DNA of 64,000 bases, taken from positions 62,001 through 126,000 of the forward strand of contig JAAZYR010000001.1 of assembly GCA_014239555.1 (NCBI GenBank). Reading direction: 5' to 3'. The position numbers and the translations under genes were made by a program. This DNA is from Acidimicrobiales bacterium (GTDB lineage Bacteria > Actinomycetota > Acidimicrobiia > Acidimicrobiales > Poriferisodalaceae). Of the stretch, positions 5,735-25,436 are shown in pieces. Within the stretch, counting starts at the first letter, position 1, and each line of letters begins with the position of its first letter. The notes under the pieces were generated by a model, which did no database searches, was not told where the DNA came from, and saw only the letters and a program-made list of their open reading frames with translations.

Positions 5735-6937
5735 ATGTCGAATCGAGTTGATTTAGTCGTCATTGGTGCAGGCATCATTGGGCTCGCGACCGCTCACCGA
5801 TATGTCGTTGAGCATCCCGGCCGATCTGTGCTGGTACTTGAACGCGAACCTGGTGCAGCTTGGCATCAGACTGGGCGTAACTCTGGGGTGCTTCACTCAG
5901 GCATTTATTACGCGCCGGGGTCCATGAAAGCCAGACTCGCTGTGTCGGGTCGAAGCGCCATGGTCGACTTTTGCCGAGAAAACGGTATTCAATATGATGT
6001 CTGCGGCAAGGTCATCGTGGCGACTCGCCGCGACGAGCTCGACAGATTGCGTGCACTTCAAGTTCGGGCGGGAGATAATGGATTGGACGCGGAGCTTATT
6101 GATCGCAATCGGCTAACGGAACTTGAACCAAATTGTGCGGGGATCGAGGCTATCCACGTCCCATCAACGGGGATAGTTTCCTACGCTGCGGTATGTGAGG
6201 TTCTCAGTCATCAGATCGAAACCGCTGGTGGTTCCATCAGATACGAAACCAACGTTTTAGGGATAGAAGACTCTGAGCAAGGAGCCCGGATTTCCACCTC
6301 AGCCGGTGAAATCATTGCAGGGCTCATTGTTAATTGCGCGGGGCTTCGCTGTGATCAAGTAGCCGAGATGGTCGGAGCATCAGATGGGAACCGCATCGTT
6401 CCGTTTCGAGGCGAATATTATGAACTAGTTCCCGAACGGCGCGACCTCGTGAACGGTCTGATTTACCCCGTGCCGGACCCAAGTTTCCCTTTTCTGGGCG
6501 TTCACTTGACTCGCATGATAGATGGAGCGGTACACGCAGGACCGAACGCGGTCTTGGCCTTAGATCGAGAGGGTTATCGGTGGCGAGACGTCAGCGCATC
6601 GCAAGTCTTTGAACATCTAGCGAACCGGGGTTTGTGGAAGTTGGCGCGCAAATACTGGCGTACTGGTGCCGGAGAAGTTTGGCGATCTCTTAGTAAGCAA
6701 GCATTCGTTCGAGCGGTACAGCGTCTAGTTCCTGACATCCGAGCGCAAGATCTAGAAGCAAGCCCGGCCGGGGTGCGGGCTCAGGCAATGGACGCAGATG
6801 GTCAATTGCTCGATGATTTCGCGATAACACAGGCAAGAAACAGCATGCATGTCCTGAATGCGCCTAGTCCCGCAGCAACTGCAAGTCTCGAAATCGCTAA
6901 CCAAATTGTTCAGATGATCGACGCACGTGAGGGATGA
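5735..6937 (+). CDS. lhgO: L-2-hydroxyglutarate oxidase / FAD-dependent oxidoreductase
   Basis: Probably oxidises L-2-hydroxyglutarate to 2-oxoglutarate with FAD. The N-terminus carries the dinucleotide-binding GAGIIG at residues 11-16. The DAO-family features typical of LhgO follow: EREPGAAWHQTGRNSGVLHSG and IYYAPGSMKA. I place the start at ATG 5735; an in-frame TTG at 5732 lies at a better distance from the AAAGGAG at 5714-5720, and a TTG at 5708 would overlap the upstream gene. It is probably co-transcribed with the J-domain gene. Confidence 0.88.
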   Translation: MSNRVDLVVIGAGIIGLATAHRYVVEHPGRSVLVLEREPGAAWHQTGRNSGVLHSGIYYAPGSMKARLAVSGRSAMVDFCRENGIQYDVCGKVIVATRRDELDRLRALQVRAGDNGLDAELIDRNRLTELEPNCAGIEAIHVPSTGIVSYAAVCEVLSHQIETAGGSIRYETNVLGIEDSEQGARISTSAGEIIAGLIVNCAGLRCDQVAEMVGASDGNRIVPFRGEYYELVPERRDLVNGLIYPVPDPSFPFLGVHLTRMIDGAVHAGPNAVLALDREGYRWRDVSASQVFEHLANRGLWKLARKYWRTGAGEVWRSLSKQAFVRAVQRLVPDIRAQDLEASPAGVRAQAMDADGQLLDDFAITQARNSMHVLNAPSPAATASLEIANQIVQMIDAREG

Positions 6938-6941
6938 ACCC

Positions 6942-7736
6942 TTAACTGTTTTGTGCTCTGCCCCGGCCTTGGATACTGGCTCTGCGTTCAGCAACCTTTC
7001 CGGGAGTAAAGCCGGTGCGTTGCAACCACTCCTTACCCATCGACGACTCCAGCGCCCAGCCGTCGTCAACGGTGACGCCGGAAGTGCGTTCATAGGTGTT
7101 GATCATTTGTCGCACCCCTTCTTGGTCGTTGGAACAAATGTCTTGGGCTACGGCGTGGACCGTCGACATGAGGGACTCGTGCGATACCACTCGGTTGACT
7201 AGCCCCCACTCTGCTGCCGTGACAGCGTCGAGGTAGTTGCCTGTCAAGCTCATTTCTCTGGCGCGTCGCACGCCAATTGCCTGGGGCAGAAGGACGCTCA
7301 GTCCCCAACCAGGCATCACACCTACTCGAGCATGGGTATCTGCGAATTTGGCTCTCTCGGACGCGATGAGGAAATCGCATGCCAAAGCCAACTCCAGTCC
7401 ACCGGTTACGGCTACACCGTTGATGGCGCCGATCAGTGGCTTTATCCGTTTTGGGAAAGGACCGCGGGACGTGGAGGGTTGATCTGGATTGATGTTTCCC
7501 CCTGATTCTCCGAGTTCTCGAAGATCAAGACCCGCACAAAAGGCCGGATCGTGTCCCGTCAAAACCAGCACGTTGACTTCGGCATTTTGTTCCAGCGAAT
7601 GAATGGCTTCTGGTAGCCCTTTTAAGACTTCGCTGCTGAGGGCATTCCGAGTTTCCGGCCGATTTAAGGTGATCACTCCAACACCTTGGGAAACTTCGCT
7701 CAACACCGTTCCGTTACCGAACTCCGTAGTTGTCAT
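6942..7736 (-). CDS. enoyl-CoA hydratase/isomerase family protein
   Basis: A crotonase-fold protein of 264 residues that acts on acyl-CoA thioesters. It has the CoA-binding and oxyanion-hole segments DPAFCAGLDLRELG and AINGVAVTGGLELALACDF. The segment FADTHARVGVMPGWGLS has His where rat enoyl-CoA hydratase has the first catalytic Glu (the PE motif), while a Glu is kept in RREMSL-like context further on. Hydratase activity is therefore unproven. The start is the ATG at 7736, preceded by GGAGAGGG; the open frame extends further upstream but that part is not protein-like. It converges on lhgO with a 4-nt gap. Confidence 0.88.
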   Translation of the reverse strand: MTTTEFGNGTVLSEVSQGVGVITLNRPETRNALSSEVLKGLPEAIHSLEQNAEVNVLVLTGHDPAFCAGLDLRELGESGGNINPDQPSTSRGPFPKRIKPLIGAINGVAVTGGLELALACDFLIASERAKFADTHARVGVMPGWGLSVLLPQAIGVRRAREMSLTGNYLDAVTAAEWGLVNRVVSHESLMSTVHAVAQDICSNDQEGVRQMINTYERTSGVTVDDGWALESSMGKEWLQRTGFTPGKVAERRASIQGRGRAQNS

Positions 7737-7790
7737 GTTTTCCCTCTCCAGCCAGAGTCGACATCTATTCTGCCCCCAGGAGGTATCACC

Positions 7791-8363
7791 GTGTCGTCGA
7801 TCGCGGGAGTGGTGTTGTTGCCTGGCGCCGGCGGCACGAAAGAACACCCCACTTTGCGCGCCCTTGAGGAGTCGTTGGCACCGCTTCCGGTAGTCCGGCA
7901 CGAATTTACTTACCGACGAGAAGGAAAAAGAACCCCGCCTCGGGCGCCGAAGCTAGTGTCAGAGCTTTTCGAAGATTGCCGAGAAATATCTGCCCAACTT
8001 GACTGTGACCCTGCCAATCTTGTTTTTGGTGGCCGGTCCATGGGAGGACGAGTCTGTTCGATGGCGGTAGCAGAAGGGCTGCCTGCGGCAGGCCTCATTC
8101 TTCTTAGCTACCCGCTGCATCCACCGAGCAAGCCCGACAAACTTCGAGTTGATCACTTTGGTGCGATAGATGTGCCCTGTCTATTTGTATCTGGAGATAA
8201 CGACCCATTTGGCTCGCCGGCTGAATTCGAACCCCATCTTGATCGCATTAGCAGCGACGTTTCCGTGAAATTCCTCAAAGGTGGTCGACATGACCCGTCG
8301 AATCGTAATCAGAGAGAAACCATCGTTGAATCCGTGAGTGAGTGGCTAGCTGCACTTCGCTAG
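7791..8363 (+). CDS. alpha/beta hydrolase of the KANL3/Tex30-like type
   Basis: A small 190-residue alpha/beta hydrolase, cytosolic. The oxyanion segment LLPGAGGTKEHP at the N-terminus, the nucleophile elbow GGRSMGG, the acid region VSGDNDPFG and the His in GGRHDPSNR follow in the expected order. The substrate is unknown. The GTG start at 7791 has an AGGAGGT ribosome-binding site at 7779-7785. It is divergent from the crotonase gene and converges with the MFS gene. Confidence 0.8.
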   Translation: MSSIAGVVLLPGAGGTKEHPTLRALEESLAPLPVVRHEFTYRREGKRTPPRAPKLVSELFEDCREISAQLDCDPANLVFGGRSMGGRVCSMAVAEGLPAAGLILLSYPLHPPSKPDKLRVDHFGAIDVPCLFVSGDNDPFGSPAEFEPHLDRISSDVSVKFLKGGRHDPSNRNQRETIVESVSEWLAALR

Positions 8364-11178: not shown

Positions 11179-12162
11179 TTGTCCGCGATCCGACCATCTC
11201 CGATGAACCGGCTGAGCACAGATCCCGTCGCCTTATTCGAGGCAGCAAGCGATGGGCATCGCCTCGCGCTTGCCAGACTGATGTCGATCATTGAGCGCGG
11301 AAGCCAAGAAGCACGAACACTGGGTGCCCACACGTTTTCACGGGTTGGCCGTGCTCATACCGTCGGAATGACGGGAGCTCCCGGTTCAGGGAAATCAACA
11401 TTGACGGCGGCGCTCGCGACTGTTGTTCGGTCCATAGACGAGCGGATGGCGATCTTAGCTGTCGACCCTTCATCGCCTTTTACCGGAGGCGCAATCCTTG
11501 GTGATCGAGTGCGGATGCAAGATCACGTAACTGACGAGGCTATCTATATCCGTTCTATGGCTACTCGAGGTCATTTGGGTGGGTTAAGCCTCGCTACTCC
11601 ACAAGCAGTCCGAGTTCTTGACGCGCTTGGCTGGCCTTGGGTGATTATCGAAACCGTCGGTGTTGGCCAGATAGAAGTAGATATTGCCGGGGCTGCTGAC
11701 ACGACTGTGGTTGTTGTGAATCCTGGATGGGGTGATGCTGTTCAGGCGAATAAAGCTGGCCTAATGGAAATCGCCGATATTTTCGTGATTAACAAATCCG
11801 ATCGCAGAGGAGTGGATGACACTCGTCGTGACATTCAACAGATGTTGGAACTCTCCTCGTTGGGTGATTGGGAACCTCCTATCGTCATGACGGTGGGCAC
11901 CGAGGGTGATGGTGCGCAAGAGCTATGGGCCACGATTGGAGAACATCGTTCCTACCTTGAGCAGAGTGGCGAGCTTTCCGCGCGTCGACGTAACCGAATC
12001 AAAGCCGAGTTGTCAAAAATTCTGAATTGGAGTCTTGAAGCCCGAGTGCAAAGTGTTTTGGAGGGTCCCCGAGGCGCAGAGCTTCACGAAAAACTTGAGA
12101 GCGGGGAGATTGATCCCTATGCAGCTGCGCAGCGTCTCCTGGAAATCGATGAGAGCGACTGA
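11179..12162 (+). CDS. meaB: MeaB/ArgK-type G-protein chaperone
   Basis: A P-loop GTPase of the ArgK/MeaB family, known to load and protect adenosylcobalamin-dependent acyl-CoA mutases such as methylmalonyl-CoA mutase. The P-loop GAPGSGKST, the switch region VDPSSPFTGGAILGDRVRM, ETVGVGQIEVDIA and the base-specificity motif NKSD are all visible. No mutase gene lies in the window. The TTG start at 11179 has AGGAC 8 nt upstream; the ATG at 11203 is an alternative. Confidence 0.92.
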   Translation: MSAIRPSPMNRLSTDPVALFEAASDGHRLALARLMSIIERGSQEARTLGAHTFSRVGRAHTVGMTGAPGSGKSTLTAALATVVRSIDERMAILAVDPSSPFTGGAILGDRVRMQDHVTDEAIYIRSMATRGHLGGLSLATPQAVRVLDALGWPWVIIETVGVGQIEVDIAGAADTTVVVVNPGWGDAVQANKAGLMEIADIFVINKSDRRGVDDTRRDIQQMLELSSLGDWEPPIVMTVGTEGDGAQELWATIGEHRSYLEQSGELSARRRNRIKAELSKILNWSLEARVQSVLEGPRGAELHEKLESGEIDPYAAAQRLLEIDESD

Positions 12163-12165
12163 GCG

Positions 12166-13293
12166 CTAGTCAAGTTCATCGCGGGCCAGTGCGAACACCG
12201 CTTCTCTCTCGTGGGATGACAAATCGGCATTCAAGAGTCGTAGTTCAGCAGCCTCGCGGACACGAGGTAACACTTCGCTTGCTCCGAACTCTTTCAGGAA
12301 AATGTTAGAAAATCGTTTTCTTAACGTTCCAATCAATAATCGGGCAAACCGCCCGTCGCGCGACGTGCCGGTTCGAAGAATCACGTAAGTGACAGCAGCA
12401 TCGAAAGCTGAAGAACCGCGGGCTGATCGGCTCCAGTTCAAGACCACTGGGCCGCGCGAACTCATTTTGATATTCCCGGGGTGAAGATCCAGATGCACCA
12501 CGGACTCCCCTTCGCTTACCCGCTCCCAGTGGGAAGGAGCAGCAACCGTTCCCAGTGCGCGATGCAGCCTCGCTAGGTTCTTTGCGTGCCTATGCAGAGT
12601 CCAAGGCCTAGACGTGAGATCTTCGAGCATTGTGGGTCCATATAGGCGTTCCATAACGATGGACGAAGGTTCTGGTTGTTGCACGAACTTAGGAGCCGGA
12701 AAGCCAGTGGAGTTGAGAGCGACAAGTGCTTCTGCCTCTCGGGCCAGGTTCAACCCTCGAGTGCTGGTTCGAATTACATGCTCGGGTCCGTAATGTCGAA
12801 GTTCCCATTCCGAACCGATATTTATTAAACCGCCGGGTTCTTGACCTAGTCCGGCTTCTTGACGCTCAATAATTTGCCTGCGGAGTCCCCTTAGATTTCG
12901 TTTCCAGATACCAGCCAAAATGGGCTTGGCTACCCGCTCCCCTAATTTGCCGCCGAAGTGCCATGGCAATTGGATTGCTTCGTCCCAGCAAAACCGAGTG
13001 CCTCCCGTGTTGGGGACGAGAGTAAATCGACCGAAACCGCTAACGATTCCGGAGTGTTGGACGCCCATCACATGGCCGGGTTCCCATTCAAGAATTTTCA
13101 TACGATCGCGAAGTCGAAATGGGCCTACAGATGTAAGGCAGTCAAAAGTGAGTCCAGGGCCTTCCAAAATTTTTGATGTGACTTCTACGCGTGTGGCGTC
13201 GATCATCCATTCGCTGTGTTTGGTGACATCAGCTAGGTAGCTCCAGACTTCATTTGGAGTTGCTGGAAGATCGATTACGACTCGAATTTCCAT
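12166..13293 (-). CDS. SRPBCC domain fused to an APH-type kinase-like domain
   Basis: A 375-residue two-domain protein. Residues 1-~145 look like a SRPBCC/polyketide-cyclase ligand-binding domain (LPATPNEVWSYLADVTKHSEW, FGRFTLVPNTGGTRFCWDE). Residues ~165-375 look like an aminoglycoside-phosphotransferase fold. The catalytic loop HLDLHPGN (267-274) is intact, but the metal-binding Asp expected in the later IDW-type motif is Asn286 (VVLNW). Phosphotransfer may be impaired. The ligand is unknown. It is downstream of, and on the same strand as, the methyltransferase gene (26-nt gap), probably one transcript. Confidence 0.78.
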   Translation of the reverse strand: MEIRVVIDLPATPNEVWSYLADVTKHSEWMIDATRVEVTSKILEGPGLTFDCLTSVGPFRLRDRMKILEWEPGHVMGVQHSGIVSGFGRFTLVPNTGGTRFCWDEAIQLPWHFGGKLGERVAKPILAGIWKRNLRGLRRQIIERQEAGLGQEPGGLINIGSEWELRHYGPEHVIRTSTRGLNLAREAEALVALNSTGFPAPKFVQQPEPSSIVMERLYGPTMLEDLTSRPWTLHRHAKNLARLHRALGTVAAPSHWERVSEGESVVHLDLHPGNIKMSSRGPVVLNWSRSARGSSAFDAAVTYVILRTGTSRDGRFARLLIGTLRKRFSNIFLKEFGASEVLPRVREAAELRLLNADLSSHEREAVFALARDELD

Positions 13294-16278: not shown

Positions 16279-19296
<3,018 letters not shown>

Positions 19297-19305
19297 GCTC
19301 CTTGT

Positions 19306-19770
19306 TTAAAACGATGCCCAACACCACCGGTAATCGATGTTGTCAACCTCAATGTCGATAAGCGGCACCGCAATTAAATGGGCGCACACCTGACCGGTGC
19401 GCATCTCCACGATGGCTGAACCCTCTCCAGGCGAGAAGAAAAATTCCCCAAGCTGGCGAGTACCTGCACTCAGTTGATTATCGGGAATTTTCACTCCAGC
19501 GATCGTTAGCGTGGGCTGCCACCCTGGGCTTAGCGAAACACCCACTAGTCCTTGTCGTGGAGCCTGATCTCCTTCTTGTGGGATCACTGCTAGGAGCCCG
19601 GTAGGAAAAGTTGAGACCTGTGGAGCGCCTCTCGTTGTTGACGCGACCCAAATGATGATCCCTAGCAGTACAACGACAAGGACTGTCACAGTTGATGCGA
19701 TCCCTCTTCGTAGCGTCCAGTTGACTGTGGCAGGGTCCGAAAAATTGTCGCCGTTGGGGGTGTCGTTCAC
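19306..19770 (-). CDS. single-pass membrane protein of unknown function
   Basis: A 154-residue protein with a hydrophilic N-terminus, one membrane segment at about residues 25-45 (IASTVTVLVVVLLGIIIWVAS) and a presumably extracellular ~105-residue domain containing two Cys. No family is recognised. The GTG start is preceded on its strand by CATGAT at 6 nt. It converges with ligA and is divergent from the PASTA pseudokinase, 79 nt between starts, which may hint at a cell-envelope role. Confidence 0.65.
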   Translation of the reverse strand: MNDTPNGDNFSDPATVNWTLRRGIASTVTVLVVVLLGIIIWVASTTRGAPQVSTFPTGLLAVIPQEGDQAPRQGLVGVSLSPGWQPTLTIAGVKIPDNQLSAGTRQLGEFFFSPGEGSAIVEMRTGQVCAHLIAVPLIDIEVDNIDYRWCWASF

Positions 19771-19837: not shown

Positions 19838-19843
19838 TACTGT
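19838..19843 (+). promoter_or_regulatory. -10 box (TACTGT) of leaderless PASTA gene
   Basis: TACTGT is followed by 6 nt and the GTG at 19850. It supports the short N-terminus; the longer open frame overlaps the divergent gene. Confidence 0.55.
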
Positions 19844-19849
19844 CGAGAT

Positions 19850-21709
19850 GTGGAGCTAGGTCAGGCAAACGACTGGACGGGGCGAGTAGTAGACGACCGT
19901 TATCAGATACTTTCCTACAGCACCCGTGGACGGGGTTGGGATGAGTACCACGCGCGCGAACTAGACACTAACGATCGGGTCTTAATCAAGATTTTGAGTA
20001 CCTCGATTTCTGAAGATGTCGAGTTTTTGCGACGGTTGGCATCGGATATAGCGACCGCAAATTTCATCGTTCACCCACATGTGCAACGCGTATTCGATTG
20101 GGGTCGATCGGGTGAAGTCGTTTACTTGGTTACTGAAACATTTCAAGGCGTTAGCTTGCAGTTGCTTCTGGATCAAGGTCACCCGTTAACTGCTGCTCAA
20201 GCAACAAAGCTTGGCTTCGAAATTGCTTCTGGGCTAAATGCCGTTCACCAATCAAGCCTTTGTCACGGCGACATCTCGCCCTCCAATTTGCTTATAGGTG
20301 CTAATGGGTCAAGCAAACTCGCTGGCTTTTTTTTGGCGGATGCGTTCAATGCCGCTGAGGCAGGTCGACTTTCGGTGGTGGGGACTGGCCTTTTGGAACC
20401 GTCAGTGAGATTTGCTGCGCCTGAAACGTTATCGGGGACTAGCGGGCCCGAATCCGACGTTTATTCGCTAGTTGCTAGCCTTGTCGCTTCAATCAGCGAC
20501 CAAACTGGTGAATCTGAAACGCCTTGGAGGAACCTTTCGCATGGAGAACGAGATCAAGACTTAAGGATTCCGGCTGAATTTGAACGAGCTAAGGAGATTT
20601 TGGGTGAAGGGGGCCGATTCGAACCGAAGGCTCGCTGTGACGCCATATCGTTGACGGAGGGCTTGATCGAAGCGACGAAAGGTTTCACGAAGCCGGCGAA
20701 CATCGCCATTCCTACATCTCTTTTAGTTGGATTTGACGGCGATCCTGTCGCGTCAAGCGCTGATCGTTCCAACGAATTTTTGAGACCGAAATGGCGCCCA
20801 GTTCGAAAGCTCGCAGCCACCGTCGCCGTTGTATTTGCCTTGCTATCCGCTGGAACTGCGTGGGCCGTTAGCAGTGTTCAGCCTCAGGGACTCCCGGCTC
20901 ATCTTGTTCAGCAGTACACAGGCCGTACGGTTGGTGAAGTACGTGCTATCGCGGATTCGCTTTCATGGGTTCTCGACGAAGATCAGGTACGAACAGACGA
21001 TTTGCCAACTGGGATTGTCTTGGCTCAAAGACCCGCGCCCGGGCGCCGTTTGGCTGAGGGAGAGATGCTTGTTGTTGAAGTTGCGAGCGGTCCGCGCCTT
21101 CGAATGACCCCAATGGTGTTGGGACTATCAACCGCCGCCGCTGTAGCCCGGCTCGAAACCAAGGGCTTCGAGGTGGACCTTGTCCAACCGCTGTACGACG
21201 AAAAGATCGCTGCAGGTGAAGTCATCAAAGTGTTGATTGGTGGAGAGTCCGCATTGGGTGGTGGCTTAAGGGAGCCAGGCACGAGAGCAGTGCTCGTAGT
21301 TTCTGGGGGGCCTGTCCCTCGAACAGTTCCGGTACTGGTTGGGCTGGATTTCAGCAACGCCGAACGAGTATTGAACGAGCTTCAACTGCGGGTTGCTAGA
21401 CCAGTAGGGCTGGAACCCAGCGAGACTGTCGACGAAGGCACCGTCCTAAGTCAAGATTTGACGCCGGGGCTGCTCGTAGATCGAGAATCACAGGTTTCCT
21501 TGACCATTTCCTCAGGCCCAGATTTACAGGAAGTTCCTGATATGCGGGGATTGACTGTGTTTGATGCGGAGCGTCGGTTGGATGAAGTCGGGCTCCAAGT
21601 CGGCGAGATCAGAGGCGACGGTCTCAAGGTCCAGGGAACCGAACCAGCGGCTGGGACGTTCTTGCGGCCGGGCACCTCAATTCTTCTTTGGGCGCCGCTG
21701 CAAGAATAA
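19850..21709 (+). CDS. PASTA-domain Ser/Thr kinase-like protein, probable pseudokinase
   Basis: A 619-residue membrane protein with the PknB/Stk layout: cytoplasmic kinase-like domain (~15-265), a low-complexity linker, one membrane segment (~318-338, AATVAVVFALLSAGTAWAV) and four extracellular PASTA repeats to the end. PASTA domains bind peptidoglycan fragments or lipid II. In the kinase domain K47 (VLIKIL) and the catalytic loop HGDISPSN (139-146) are present. The glycine-rich loop is degenerate (STRGRGWDEY), and the DFG motif reads GFF with Gly159 in place of the Mg-binding Asp. Catalysis is therefore doubtful. A run of eight T (20327-20334) lies at this degenerate motif. Confidence 0.85.
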   Translation: MELGQANDWTGRVVDDRYQILSYSTRGRGWDEYHARELDTNDRVLIKILSTSISEDVEFLRRLASDIATANFIVHPHVQRVFDWGRSGEVVYLVTETFQGVSLQLLLDQGHPLTAAQATKLGFEIASGLNAVHQSSLCHGDISPSNLLIGANGSSKLAGFFLADAFNAAEAGRLSVVGTGLLEPSVRFAAPETLSGTSGPESDVYSLVASLVASISDQTGESETPWRNLSHGERDQDLRIPAEFERAKEILGEGGRFEPKARCDAISLTEGLIEATKGFTKPANIAIPTSLLVGFDGDPVASSADRSNEFLRPKWRPVRKLAATVAVVFALLSAGTAWAVSSVQPQGLPAHLVQQYTGRTVGEVRAIADSLSWVLDEDQVRTDDLPTGIVLAQRPAPGRRLAEGEMLVVEVASGPRLRMTPMVLGLSTAAAVARLETKGFEVDLVQPLYDEKIAAGEVIKVLIGGESALGGGLREPGTRAVLVVSGGPVPRTVPVLVGLDFSNAERVLNELQLRVARPVGLEPSETVDEGTVLSQDLTPGLLVDRESQVSLTISSGPDLQEVPDMRGLTVFDAERRLDEVGLQVGEIRGDGLKVQGTEPAAGTFLRPGTSILLWAPLQE

Positions 21710-21957: not shown

Positions 21958-22281
21958 ATGGCATCGGGAACTAGCCCAGCGCGCCTGTCGCGTATCGAGA
22001 GCAGAGAACGCAACAGCAAATGGCCGAACGTCCCTATGTACATCGACATGTCACAATGCATAAATTGCGATGCCTGTCTGCGAGCTTGTCCCCCCAATTT
22101 TGGTGCCATTTTCAACCACGGTATCGATGTCGTTATTCTTCCGGAGCTCTGCTCGGGCTGTGACAAGTGTCTCGATCCGTGTCCCGTGGATTGCATCTAT
22201 CCTCTTCCCGCTGATGAGTGGGAACCAGCGCCCGATGATTGGTGGGAAGAGCCCTTGAGCGCAAACGACCCCTACGTGTGA
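21958..22281 (+). CDS. ferredoxin, two 4Fe-4S clusters
   Basis: A 107-residue electron carrier. The first cluster motif is CINCDACLRACP and the second CSGCDKCLDPCPVDC, the arrangement of bacterial 2[4Fe-4S] ferredoxins. The first ~25 residues (to PNVPMYID) are polar and not part of the fold. The C-terminal tail is rich in Trp and acidic residues (EWEPAPDDWWEEP). The start is fixed by the -10 box 7 nt upstream; an internal ATG before YIDMSQC is less likely. gatC follows after 22 nt. Confidence 0.9.
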   Translation: MASGTSPARLSRIESRERNSKWPNVPMYIDMSQCINCDACLRACPPNFGAIFNHGIDVVILPELCSGCDKCLDPCPVDCIYPLPADEWEPAPDDWWEEPLSANDPYV

Positions 22282-22303: not shown

Positions 22304-22606
22304 ATGACTCAATCTCTCTCACGAGACCTCGTCGCTCACATTGCGTCGTTGGCACGAATCGAACTCAACGACGAAGAAATCGCTCACTTCACTGGACATC
22401 TTGAGAAAATTCTGGAACACGTGGGCCAATTAGAAGCTCTTGATCTTGAATCGGTGGCGCCGATGTCACACCCATATCCACTGTCGAACGTGTTGAGAGA
22501 TGACTCTGTAGGGGCAACCATTGTCCGCGAAGAAGTATTGGCTCAAGCCCCGGACGAGTCTGAGGGCCAATTTCGTGTGCCACCGGTGTTGGGAGAATCA
22601 CCTTGA
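22304..22606 (+). CDS. gatC: Asp/Glu-tRNA amidotransferase subunit C
   Basis: The small subunit that stabilises GatA in the GatCAB complex. At 100 residues it has the usual size, with the typical helices ASLARIELNDEEI and FTGHLEKILEHVGQL, and PMSHPYPLSNVLRDD near the C-terminus. It overlaps gatA by 4 nt (TTGA). Confidence 0.94.
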   Translation: MTQSLSRDLVAHIASLARIELNDEEIAHFTGHLEKILEHVGQLEALDLESVAPMSHPYPLSNVLRDDSVGATIVREEVLAQAPDESEGQFRVPPVLGESP

Positions 22607-24033
22607 ACTCTGCAAAGAGTCTGGCCTCAGATGTTCGTGAGGGACGAAAAACCGCTGTCTCCGTTCTCGAAGAACACCTCAAAGTGATCGAATCGCGCGA
22701 GTCTGAGGTACACGCGTTCAACCTGATCGCGCGCGAGAAAGCTGTCGAGGCCGCTGCAGAAATAGATAAGGCAGTTGCATCTGGTCGTGATCCGGGACCT
22801 CTTGCAGGAGTCCCGGTCGCGTTAAAAGACAACTTGTGTACCCGAGGCCTCGCCACGACGTGTTCATCGCGGATTCTTGAGGGATGGGAACCGCCCTACG
22901 ATGCAACAGTGGTGGAACGCCTAGTCGCCGCCGGAGCCGTCGTCGTTGGAAAAACGAACCTCGACGAATTTGCTATGGGTAGTTCGACCGAACATTCAGC
23001 GTTTGGACCCACACACAATCCCCACGACCTCACCCGAGTTCCTGGAGGCTCAAGCGGAGGATCTGCAGCAGCTGTAGCAGCAGGTTTCGCACCGATTGCA
23101 TTGGGCTCCGACACAGGTGGGTCGATTCGACAGCCAGCATCTCTATGTGGCGTCGTGGGTGTGAAGCCAACTTACGGATTGGTCAGCCGATATGGACTCA
23201 TCGCGTTCGCTTCCTCATTTGACCAGATTGGGCCATTCGCGAACGATGTTGCGGATGCGGCTCTAACTCTCGAAGTGATCGGAGGTCATGACCCGTTAGA
23301 CAGCACTTCGATTCCCTCTCAGGTACCTGATCTAGCGAAGAACTTAGATCGCGGTGTCGAAGGCCTGCGAGTGGGGCTAGTTCGTGAGCTCCTCGAAGGT
23401 ATAGATGAAGACGTGGTGTCGCGGGTGCATGAAGTAGCTGATTTGTTTAGTAGCGCAGGCGCGGCGGTCGATTTTGTGTCTGTGCCTGCTGTTGAGTACG
23501 GGCTAACGGCTTATTACCTCATCGCCCCTGCCGAGGCGTCAAGCAACTTGGCTCGTTATGACGGTGTTCGTTACGGAATGAGGGCCGAGGGCACTGACGT
23601 AAAACTCATGAACTCGATTACACGCCGAAGTGGGTTTGGTGACGAAGTGATTGCGAGGGTAATGCTCGGGACCTTTGCATTGAGTGCTGGGTATTACGAT
23701 GCGTACTACGGCAAGGCTCAAAAGGTACGCACCCTGACACGACGCGACTTCGACGCGGCTTACGCGGATCATGATGTTCTTTTGTCGCCAACTTCTCCGT
23801 CCGTCGCTTTCAAATTTGGGGAGCGCTCGGATCCCATGACTATGTACCGCTGCGATACATGTACCGTTCCGAGCAATCTGGTCGGTGATCCGGCAATATC
23901 TATTCCGTTTGGAACTGGCGCATATGACATGCCCGTCGGCGTTCAAGTTATGGCGCCGCAACTGGGGGAGTCGCTCATGTTTCAAACCGCATCGTTCATC
24001 GAGTCGCAGGCTCCTGCCGGAGGTACATCGTGA
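22603..24033 (+). CDS. gatA: Asp/Glu-tRNA amidotransferase subunit A
   Basis: The glutaminase/amidase subunit that frees ammonia for transamidation. The amidase-signature triad is visible: Lys in GVPVALKDN, the cis-Ser in GGSSGGSAAAV and the nucleophile Ser in GSDTGGSIRQPA. It has 476 residues. The TTG start overlaps the gatC stop, and the end overlaps gatB (GTGA), so the three genes are translationally coupled. Confidence 0.96.
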   Translation: MNSAKSLASDVREGRKTAVSVLEEHLKVIESRESEVHAFNLIAREKAVEAAAEIDKAVASGRDPGPLAGVPVALKDNLCTRGLATTCSSRILEGWEPPYDATVVERLVAAGAVVVGKTNLDEFAMGSSTEHSAFGPTHNPHDLTRVPGGSSGGSAAAVAAGFAPIALGSDTGGSIRQPASLCGVVGVKPTYGLVSRYGLIAFASSFDQIGPFANDVADAALTLEVIGGHDPLDSTSIPSQVPDLAKNLDRGVEGLRVGLVRELLEGIDEDVVSRVHEVADLFSSAGAAVDFVSVPAVEYGLTAYYLIAPAEASSNLARYDGVRYGMRAEGTDVKLMNSITRRSGFGDEVIARVMLGTFALSAGYYDAYYGKAQKVRTLTRRDFDAAYADHDVLLSPTSPSVAFKFGERSDPMTMYRCDTCTVPSNLVGDPAISIPFGTGAYDMPVGVQVMAPQLGESLMFQTASFIESQAPAGGTS

Positions 24034-25436
24034 CCGAGTGGGAAATTGTGGTTGGTCTAGAAGTACATGTGGAGTTGGCAACCAATACGAAGCTGTTTTC
24101 GCACGCACCGAATCGCTTCGGCGATGCCCCGAACACAAACATCACTCCCGTATGTCTGGGCTTACCGGGTTCATTGCCAGTACTTAATCGAAAAGCTGTC
24201 GAATTGGCGATGACTATCGGTATCGCACTTGGGTGTGAGATTCAGCCGTCGGTTTTTCATCGCAAAAACTATTTTTACCCCGACATGCCCAAGGACTATC
24301 AGGTCAGTCAATATGACCAACCCATCTGCATTGACGGTTCTCTTGATCTTCCGAACGGCACACGCGTAGGTATTGAGCGCGCCCATCTCGAAGAAGACGC
24401 CGGAAAGACCACCCATCTAGGAGGCGAAGACGGGCGAATCCATGGGGCTTCCGAGGCGTTGGTGGATTACAACCGGGCGGGAGTTCCGCTGCTTGAAGTC
24501 GTTTCTCGACCCGATATTCGATCGGCCGAGGATGCTCGGGTATATGTCGAAGAGCTTCGAGCGATACTGATAGCTACTGAGGCGTCCGAGGCGCGCTTGG
24601 AAGAAGGGTCGATGAGAGTTGACGCCAACGTGAGCGTCCGACCGTTCGGTTCAACTGAATTGCGCACACGCTGTGAGATCAAAAATTTGAATTCGCTCCG
24701 CTCTTTACAGCGTGCCATCAGCTATGAAGCCGAGCGACATGTCGACCTGTATGAGGCGGGCGAAGCACCGCGACAAGAGACCCGACATTGGTCAGAAGAC
24801 GGCAGGACTCACACGCTGCGCTCCAAAGAAGAAGCGAACGATTACCGTTATTTCCCTGAGCCTGATTTGGTGCTTCTTGACCCCGATTCTGAGTGGATTC
24901 AGGACATTGTGGCTGGAATGCCTGAGCTTCCTGCCGAAGAGCGAGCGAGACTTGTGGCTAGCGCTGGAATAGATCTGGAAATCGCCGCCACGGTCGTGAA
25001 TCGGGGCTTGTCGTCACTGGTATTTGCTGCGGTAGCCGCCGGCGCTGATGGCCAACGAGCGACCATGCATGCGATACAGAATCTTTCGATAGATGGCGCC
25101 GCTGCACTAGATCCAATCCATTTCGCTGAACTTATCGACCTGGAAAAATCAGGCACCTTGACTGCTACGCAAACCAAGCAGGTTCTTTTAGAAATGGTGG
25201 ATACCGGGGTTGATCCGGTGTCGATTGCGCAGACTCACGGGTTTGAAGCCATGGAGTCCGGCGAACTGGAAATACTCGTCGAGCGAGCTATTTCCGAAAA
25301 TCCCGAAGCTTGGATCAAGTTCTGCGAGGGTGAAGACAAAGTGCAAGGCGTGTTCGTCGGCGCAGTCATGAAGGCTTCGAAAGGCCAAGCAGATGGCAAA
25401 GCTGTCAACGCAATTCTTCGACAGCGAAGAGGATGA
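24030..25436 (+). CDS. gatB: Asp/Glu-tRNA amidotransferase subunit B
   Basis: Binds mischarged Glu-tRNA(Gln) or Asp-tRNA(Asn) and performs the amidation. Recognisable segments are VGLEVHVELATNTKLFS, the KNYFYPDMPKDYQVSQYD stretch, HLEEDAGKT and the C-terminal tRNA-binding YqeY-like tail. It has 468 residues. With gltX and tRNA-Gln in this window it supports indirect Gln-tRNA synthesis. It converges with the DUF4332 gene, 15 nt away. Confidence 0.96.
   Translation: MTEWEIVVGLEVHVELATNTKLFSHAPNRFGDAPNTNITPVCLGLPGSLPVLNRKAVELAMTIGIALGCEIQPSVFHRKNYFYPDMPKDYQVSQYDQPICIDGSLDLPNGTRVGIERAHLEEDAGKTTHLGGEDGRIHGASEALVDYNRAGVPLLEVVSRPDIRSAEDARVYVEELRAILIATEASEARLEEGSMRVDANVSVRPFGSTELRTRCEIKNLNSLRSLQRAISYEAERHVDLYEAGEAPRQETRHWSEDGRTHTLRSKEEANDYRYFPEPDLVLLDPDSEWIQDIVAGMPELPAEERARLVASAGIDLEIAATVVNRGLSSLVFAAVAAGADGQRATMHAIQNLSIDGAAALDPIHFAELIDLEKSGTLTATQTKQVLLEMVDTGVDPVSIAQTHGFEAMESGELEILVERAISENPEAWIKFCEGEDKVQGVFVGAVMKASKGQADGKAVNAILRQRRG

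Follow-up and report, generated by a model that had tools for sequence, protein, structure and literature searches.

A PASTA receptor with a most probably dead kinase domain at the ligA-gatCAB locus of an Acidimicrobiales bacterium

PASTA kinases have been studied as coupled units of sensor and enzyme. The ectodomain of PknB binds lipid II containing meso-diaminopimelic acid (mDAP-lipid II) and directs localization (PMC6428115). In M. smegmatis, growth is impaired and nascent peptidoglycan is shifted when the four-PASTA part of PknB is overexpressed in membrane-anchored form, an effect for which the authors suggested interference with PknB; two or three PASTA repeats cause a marginal defect, and one repeat or an untethered form causes none (PMC4632501). 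According to PMC12599244, the pseudokinase domain of MviN is phosphorylated by PknB and recruits FhaA, the ActPs3/MviN pseudokinases have completely lost the catalytic motifs and carry a deletion in the activation loop, all three catalytic residues are substituted in the ActPs1 pseudokinases, and SelO carries out another nucleotide transfer. Here, we describe a gene in a stretch of 64,000 nucleotides of an Acidimicrobiales bacterium (contig JAAZYR010000001.1, positions 62,001 to 126,000; the whole stretch is referred to as the window), which encodes a PASTA protein with a degenerate kinase domain. The reading which we favour, at slightly better than even confidence, is that of a catalytically dead PASTA receptor, anchored in the membrane, whose ectodomain tunes PknB or the synthesis of the wall.

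The 619-amino-acid protein has the architecture of a PASTA kinase, that is, a Hanks kinase domain, a transmembrane helix (read from the translation) and PASTA repeats. A Pfam search detected Pkinase (PF00069, 72 bits, residues 33-216) and PASTA (119.6 bits in total, four stretches). The AlphaFold2 model of the kinase domain (mean predicted local distance difference test score, pLDDT, 85.3; predicted template modelling score, pTM, 0.86) had PknA and PknB as its best PDB matches in Foldseek (E ~1e-16). Thus, the structure prediction proposed as a check by an original prediction, which was made from the DNA letters and had described a PASTA receptor with a degenerate kinase domain, yielded a confident kinase fold, and the description itself is borne out by the Pfam domains and the lost catalytic residues. 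The parts of the gene are:

19850..21709, + strand: PASTA pseudokinase gene, GTG start, 619 amino acids (open reading frame, Pfam, syntenic orthologues)
19880..20677, + strand: degenerate Hanks-kinase domain, residues ~11-276 (Pfam PF00069, AlphaFold2, Foldseek)
19988..19990, + strand: beta3 Lys47 (VLIK), retained (PknA and family alignments)
20045..20047, + strand: Asp66 at the position of the alpha-C Glu (family alignment)
20264..20287, + strand: catalytic loop HGDISPSN, residues 139-146, with Asp141 kept and the Lys of HRDxK replaced by Ser143 (family alignment)
20324..20332, + strand: GFF instead of DFG, with Gly159 where the metal Asp would be (PknA and family alignments)
20324..20425, + strand: remodelled activation segment; it has 34 residues, compared with 30 in intact members of the family (family alignment)
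20810..20872, + strand: transmembrane helix, residues ~321-341 (hydrophobic stretch in the translation; kept in kinase-less relatives)
20906..21082, + strand: PASTA repeat 1 (29.8 bits)
21110..21235, + strand: PASTA repeat 2, under the family cut-off (21.8 bits)
21323..21514, + strand: PASTA repeat 3 (46.4 bits)
21530..21691, + strand: PASTA repeat 4 (40 bits)

In the phmmer alignment to PknA of M. tuberculosis, 'KLAGFFLADAF' lies under 'KITDFGIAKAV', so that Gly159 occupies the place of the metal Asp. The original prediction had named a conserved Asp at this position as a finding that would speak against it; instead, its GFF motif at Gly159 was recovered, together with the Lys of subdomain II, the HGDxxxxN loop and the degenerate glycine loop which it had noted. 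The GFF motif is no register artefact, since intact orthologues from the same locus align ADFG or GDFG at this site. A sequencing or assembly error is likewise unlikely, because none of the 19 aligned pseudokinases, from four genera, has the Asp; they have G, A, S or N at the position. A domain was regarded as a pseudokinase if at least one of the beta3 Lys, the HRD Asp and the DFG Asp was lost, and the loss of the DFG Asp places the window protein and its 18 aligned relatives in this group; the full set of catalytic residues of a PASTA kinase is not present. Further losses, not contained in the original prediction, comprise the alpha-C Glu (intact orthologues have E, and all 18 pseudokinases readable at this site have D), the Lys of HRDxK (missing in 19/19) and an activation segment that is longer by 4 residues and contains clade-specific invariant residues (AAExGRL..VGTG). 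The glycine loop is degenerate throughout the pseudokinases, whereas the beta3 Lys is kept in 17/19 of them (R in one, N in one). None of the aligned pseudokinases contains a stop or a frameshift. Taken together, the substituted residues strongly support a catalytically dead kinase domain, and the earlier classification as a pseudokinase gains support from losses that recur in four genera.

The gene order iscS-mnmA-membrane protein-ligA-divergent membrane protein-PASTA kinase-fdx-gatC-gatA-gatB recurs, in whole or in part, across families of the order. Because of this synteny, the orthology of the PASTA gene is firm independently of sequence similarity. The anchors in the window, of which ligA and gatC-gatA-gatB presumably bear the correct names, as judged from translation and family knowledge, are:

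17170..19296, + strand: ligA, syntenic anchor
21958..22281, + strand: 4Fe-4S ferredoxin gene (fdx), syntenic neighbour (Pfam)
22304..25436, + strand: gatC-gatA-gatB, syntenic anchor

The genome of the window was searched by family and by protein for a second, intact PASTA kinase, as the original prediction had recommended, and such a kinase was found: an intact PknB (HRDVKPGN, DFG) is encoded in a pstP-rodA-pbpA operon. According to the translations, it is adjoined by pbpA, rodA, pstP (PP2C-like) and FHA-domain genes. One further match above the Pfam kinase cut-off and two below were obtained in the same genome, and an intact PknB-type kinase was present in 25/25 genomes tested. The window gene is not PknB proper, as it lies at ligA-gatCAB, outside the pstP-rodA-pbpA-pknB operon, and a separate intact PknB exists.

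The relatives at this locus (the named ones are metagenome-assembled genomes of Acidimicrobiia; the counts per genus cover the genomes and loci named, and the genomes vary in completeness) form a graded series. Within the family of the window, four genera (g135-g138) possess intact kinase motifs and four (g1, g139, g140 and g141) encode the pseudokinases. In genus g3 (G132, G230), the kinase domain is gone, and the start region, the transmembrane helix and the PASTA part are kept at the same locus. In genus g2, no full-length match to the PASTA gene was obtained in 11 genomes searched, and in 7/7 loci opened the gene was absent and the locus rearranged. These g2 loci (L143-L149) are rearranged around ligA, two membrane proteins, mnmA and gatC. 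A five-gene tree placed g3 as sister to the pseudokinase genera and g2 outside of both. In two other families, the HRD Asp was lost at the same locus: HGG, QRE, HGC and HGS were found in four genomes of f27 (L157, L173, L174, L175), and HRG in one genome of f12 (L092). These losses are independent, and their route differs from the DFG loss in the window. As f27, f12 and the family of the window occupy separate parts of the tree, catalysis appears to have been lost at least three times. Orthologues of family f36 (L095-L098, L176) combine Ala at the alpha-C position with an HGD or HRD motif and with DLG/DIG, and are possibly weakened, though not clearly dead, kinases. As a separate observation, contig L102 of genome G049 carries two open reading frames for kinases similar to the query on opposite strands (6018-7997, +, and 11202-12974, -), neither with ligA or gatC as neighbours.

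Selection was estimated as omega, the ratio of nonsynonymous to synonymous substitution rates, by pairwise NG86 only, and some pairs with synonymous divergence (dS) near or above 1 are less reliable. In 15 pseudokinase pairs from g1, g139 and g140, omega was 0.11-0.33 for the kinase domain and 0.03-0.18 for the PASTA part; the intact pair G198/G199 (g135) gave 0.076 and 0.084, respectively. PknB served as control (eight pairs; kinase domain 0.005-0.019, PASTA 0.03-0.09). Both genes were measured in six pairs (G000/G223, G000/G222, G205/G206, G208/G204, G225/G224 and G225/G227); two pairs are available for PknB only (G211/G206, G221/G222) and nine for the pseudokinase only. In the common pairs, omega of the kinase domain was 0.11-0.33 in the pseudokinase versus 0.005-0.019 in PknB (ratio ~6 to 67), and the PASTA values of both proteins were similar. 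Identities between genera were 57-74% for PASTA versus 39-56% for the kinase domain in pseudokinases, and 51-56% versus 61-70% in intact orthologues. Hence, the kinase domain of the pseudokinases is relaxed and the PASTA part is constrained.

The non-catalytic receptor favoured here is based on the lost catalytic residues, the orthology, the intact PknB, the relaxed kinase domain beside a constrained PASTA part and the existence of a sister genus without any kinase domain in this protein; its ligand, its effect on PknB and its docking role we infer. The protein would have descended vertically from an intact second PASTA kinase that is found next to ligA and gatCAB across the order, and would have lost the ability to phosphorylate. 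The part under selection would be the membrane-anchored four-PASTA ectodomain, which, judging from PASTA biology, may bind nascent peptidoglycan, lipid II or proteins of wall synthesis, and might modulate the pathway of the intact PknB, either in competition for the same sites or as a marker of them. The kinase domain, degenerate as it is, probably stays folded as an anchor or docking module in the cytoplasm and would be dispensable, since the kinase-less genus g3 exists. As a class of function, the 'sensor or scaffold' of the original prediction is reasonable; selection, however, seems to act on the PASTA ectodomain, because the kinase domain is relaxed and cleanly absent in the sister genus.

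Several points weigh against this receptor role. Members of the family can dispense with the function, because g2 (11 genomes searched) lives without the gene. In the kinase-less proteins of g3, only three PASTA repeats individually pass the Pfam threshold. The invariant residues in the activation segment suggest that the kinase domain may be more than an anchor, and binding of peptidoglycan, muropeptides or lipid II by the repeats of the window protein would be by analogy with other PASTA proteins.

The activation segment, in which the clade-specific invariant residues are concentrated, also leads to the strongest alternative, namely that the dead domain itself is the working part, as allosteric partner of PknB or as phospho-docking scaffold, while the PASTA repeats place the protein at growth sites. 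The open frames with omega well under 1, the intact predicted fold, the FHA-domain and PP2C-like genes next to the intact PknB and the precedent of MviN (PMC12599244) are consistent with such a role. Nevertheless, the omega of the kinase domain, about 6 to 67 times that of PknB in the six common pairs, and the complete lack of the domain in g3 speak against it. In addition, the residue equivalent to Leu33 of PknB, which we take to be a contact of the back-to-back dimer, is T, R, S or N in 19/19 pseudokinases, and this substitution weakens a partnership of the PknB type. Overall, a signalling role of the dead domain is considered rather unlikely.

Less probable still is a slowly decaying relic, in which the kinase domain erodes without function and the gene is heading for loss in reduced genomes. 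The series of intact, pseudokinase, kinase-less and lost forms at one locus, the strong relaxation of the kinase domain and the independent degeneration in f27 and f12, whose genomes comprise 1.8-2.4 Mb, would fit such a decay. However, omega is not near 1, the frame is kept open across four genera, the PASTA part is constrained much like that of PknB and residues of the activation segment are conserved. Furthermore, gene loss is not a simple function of genome size, because the genomes of g2, from which the gene has been lost, measure 3.0-4.0 Mb.

CASK, in which GFG replaces DFG, is reported to transfer phosphate independently of Mg, but an unusual active enzyme of this type, or one with another nucleotide transfer like SelO, is very improbable for the window protein: the beta3 Lys and the HRD-type Asp are kept in most members, yet the glycine loop, the alpha-C Glu and the Lys of HRDxK are also lost, the DFG position varies, one genus has exchanged the beta3 Lys for Asn, and the domain is dispensable in g3.

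Two further features lie close to the start of the gene:

19306..19770, - strand: divergent single-pass membrane protein, 154 amino acids, predicted Ig-like ectodomain (translation, model, conservation at the locus)
19838..19844, + strand: TACTGTC immediately before the start codon, a candidate -10 element for leaderless transcription (conservation)

The divergent protein, which the original prediction had correctly placed on the other strand as a single-pass membrane protein, has one transmembrane helix and a predicted beta-sandwich, and its start lies 79 bases from that of the PASTA gene. It had no Pfam or NCBIfam match, and its Foldseek matches were weak, none at E <= 0.001. As it is conserved at the locus in 38/39 genomes of the family, g2 and g3 included, its adjacency to the PASTA gene is more than chance. 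A functional link may exist, but the protein also stays in genomes without the PASTA gene; it persists where either the kinase domain or the whole gene is gone. Another predicted membrane protein (293 amino acids, 16279-17160, - strand), for which Pfam gave no match above the cut-off, is encoded between mnmA and ligA; in most of the loci read, the rearranged ones of g2 among them, it adjoins ligA.

Among the family members read, most of those with an intact kinase or a pseudokinase have TACTGTC directly before the start codon; the variants are TACTCTC in g141 and TATTGTC in the kinase-less members. This conservation makes it a candidate -10 element; the longer pattern GTACTGTC occurred at chance level in the window, and a loose TANNNT-plus-start pattern was rarer than in shuffled sequences.

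At one syntenic locus, the two halves of the PASTA kinase thus separate naturally, and the graded series of intact, dead, kinase-less and absent forms, in which the wall-facing half persists without the enzyme, allows the value of the sensing half itself to be tested. It is possible, though not probable, that this represents a natural PASTA-only signalling, in which an ancestral second PASTA kinase became a non-catalytic regulator of PknB and wall sensing was split from phosphorylation, and in which catalysis at a single orthologous locus was lost three times or more. No description of a natural PASTA pseudokinase was found in the open-licence literature, which was judged mostly on titles and abstracts and thus gives no proof of absence.

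In comparison with known systems, the window protein shares the kinase-transmembrane-PASTA architecture of the PknB/Stk1 PASTA kinases; unlike these, it has lost active-site residues, reaches only 205.8 bits with the NCBIfam model NF033483 (curated cut-off 450) and is encoded outside the PknB operon. The mycobacterial MviN (ActPs3; PMC12599244) is likewise an actinobacterial pseudokinase tied to peptidoglycan synthesis, and a scaffold role is conceivable for the window protein, too, which differs from it by the retained Lys and HGD, the longer activation segment and the attached PASTA repeats. Membership in ActPs3 is ruled out by the same retained motifs and the 4 additional residues of the activation segment, and membership in ActPs1 by the retained Lys47 and Asp141. 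EssB/YukC of the type VII secretion system b (T7SSb) is also a single-pass membrane pseudokinase with a non-catalytic role, but all three of its motifs are degraded and it is part of a secretion apparatus (PMC12599244). A parallel to the g3 relatives is TMP, the transmembrane-PASTA construct of PknB in M. smegmatis (PMC4632501): both are membrane-anchored PASTA ectodomains without a kinase, the one a laboratory overexpression construct and the other the product of a natural gene.
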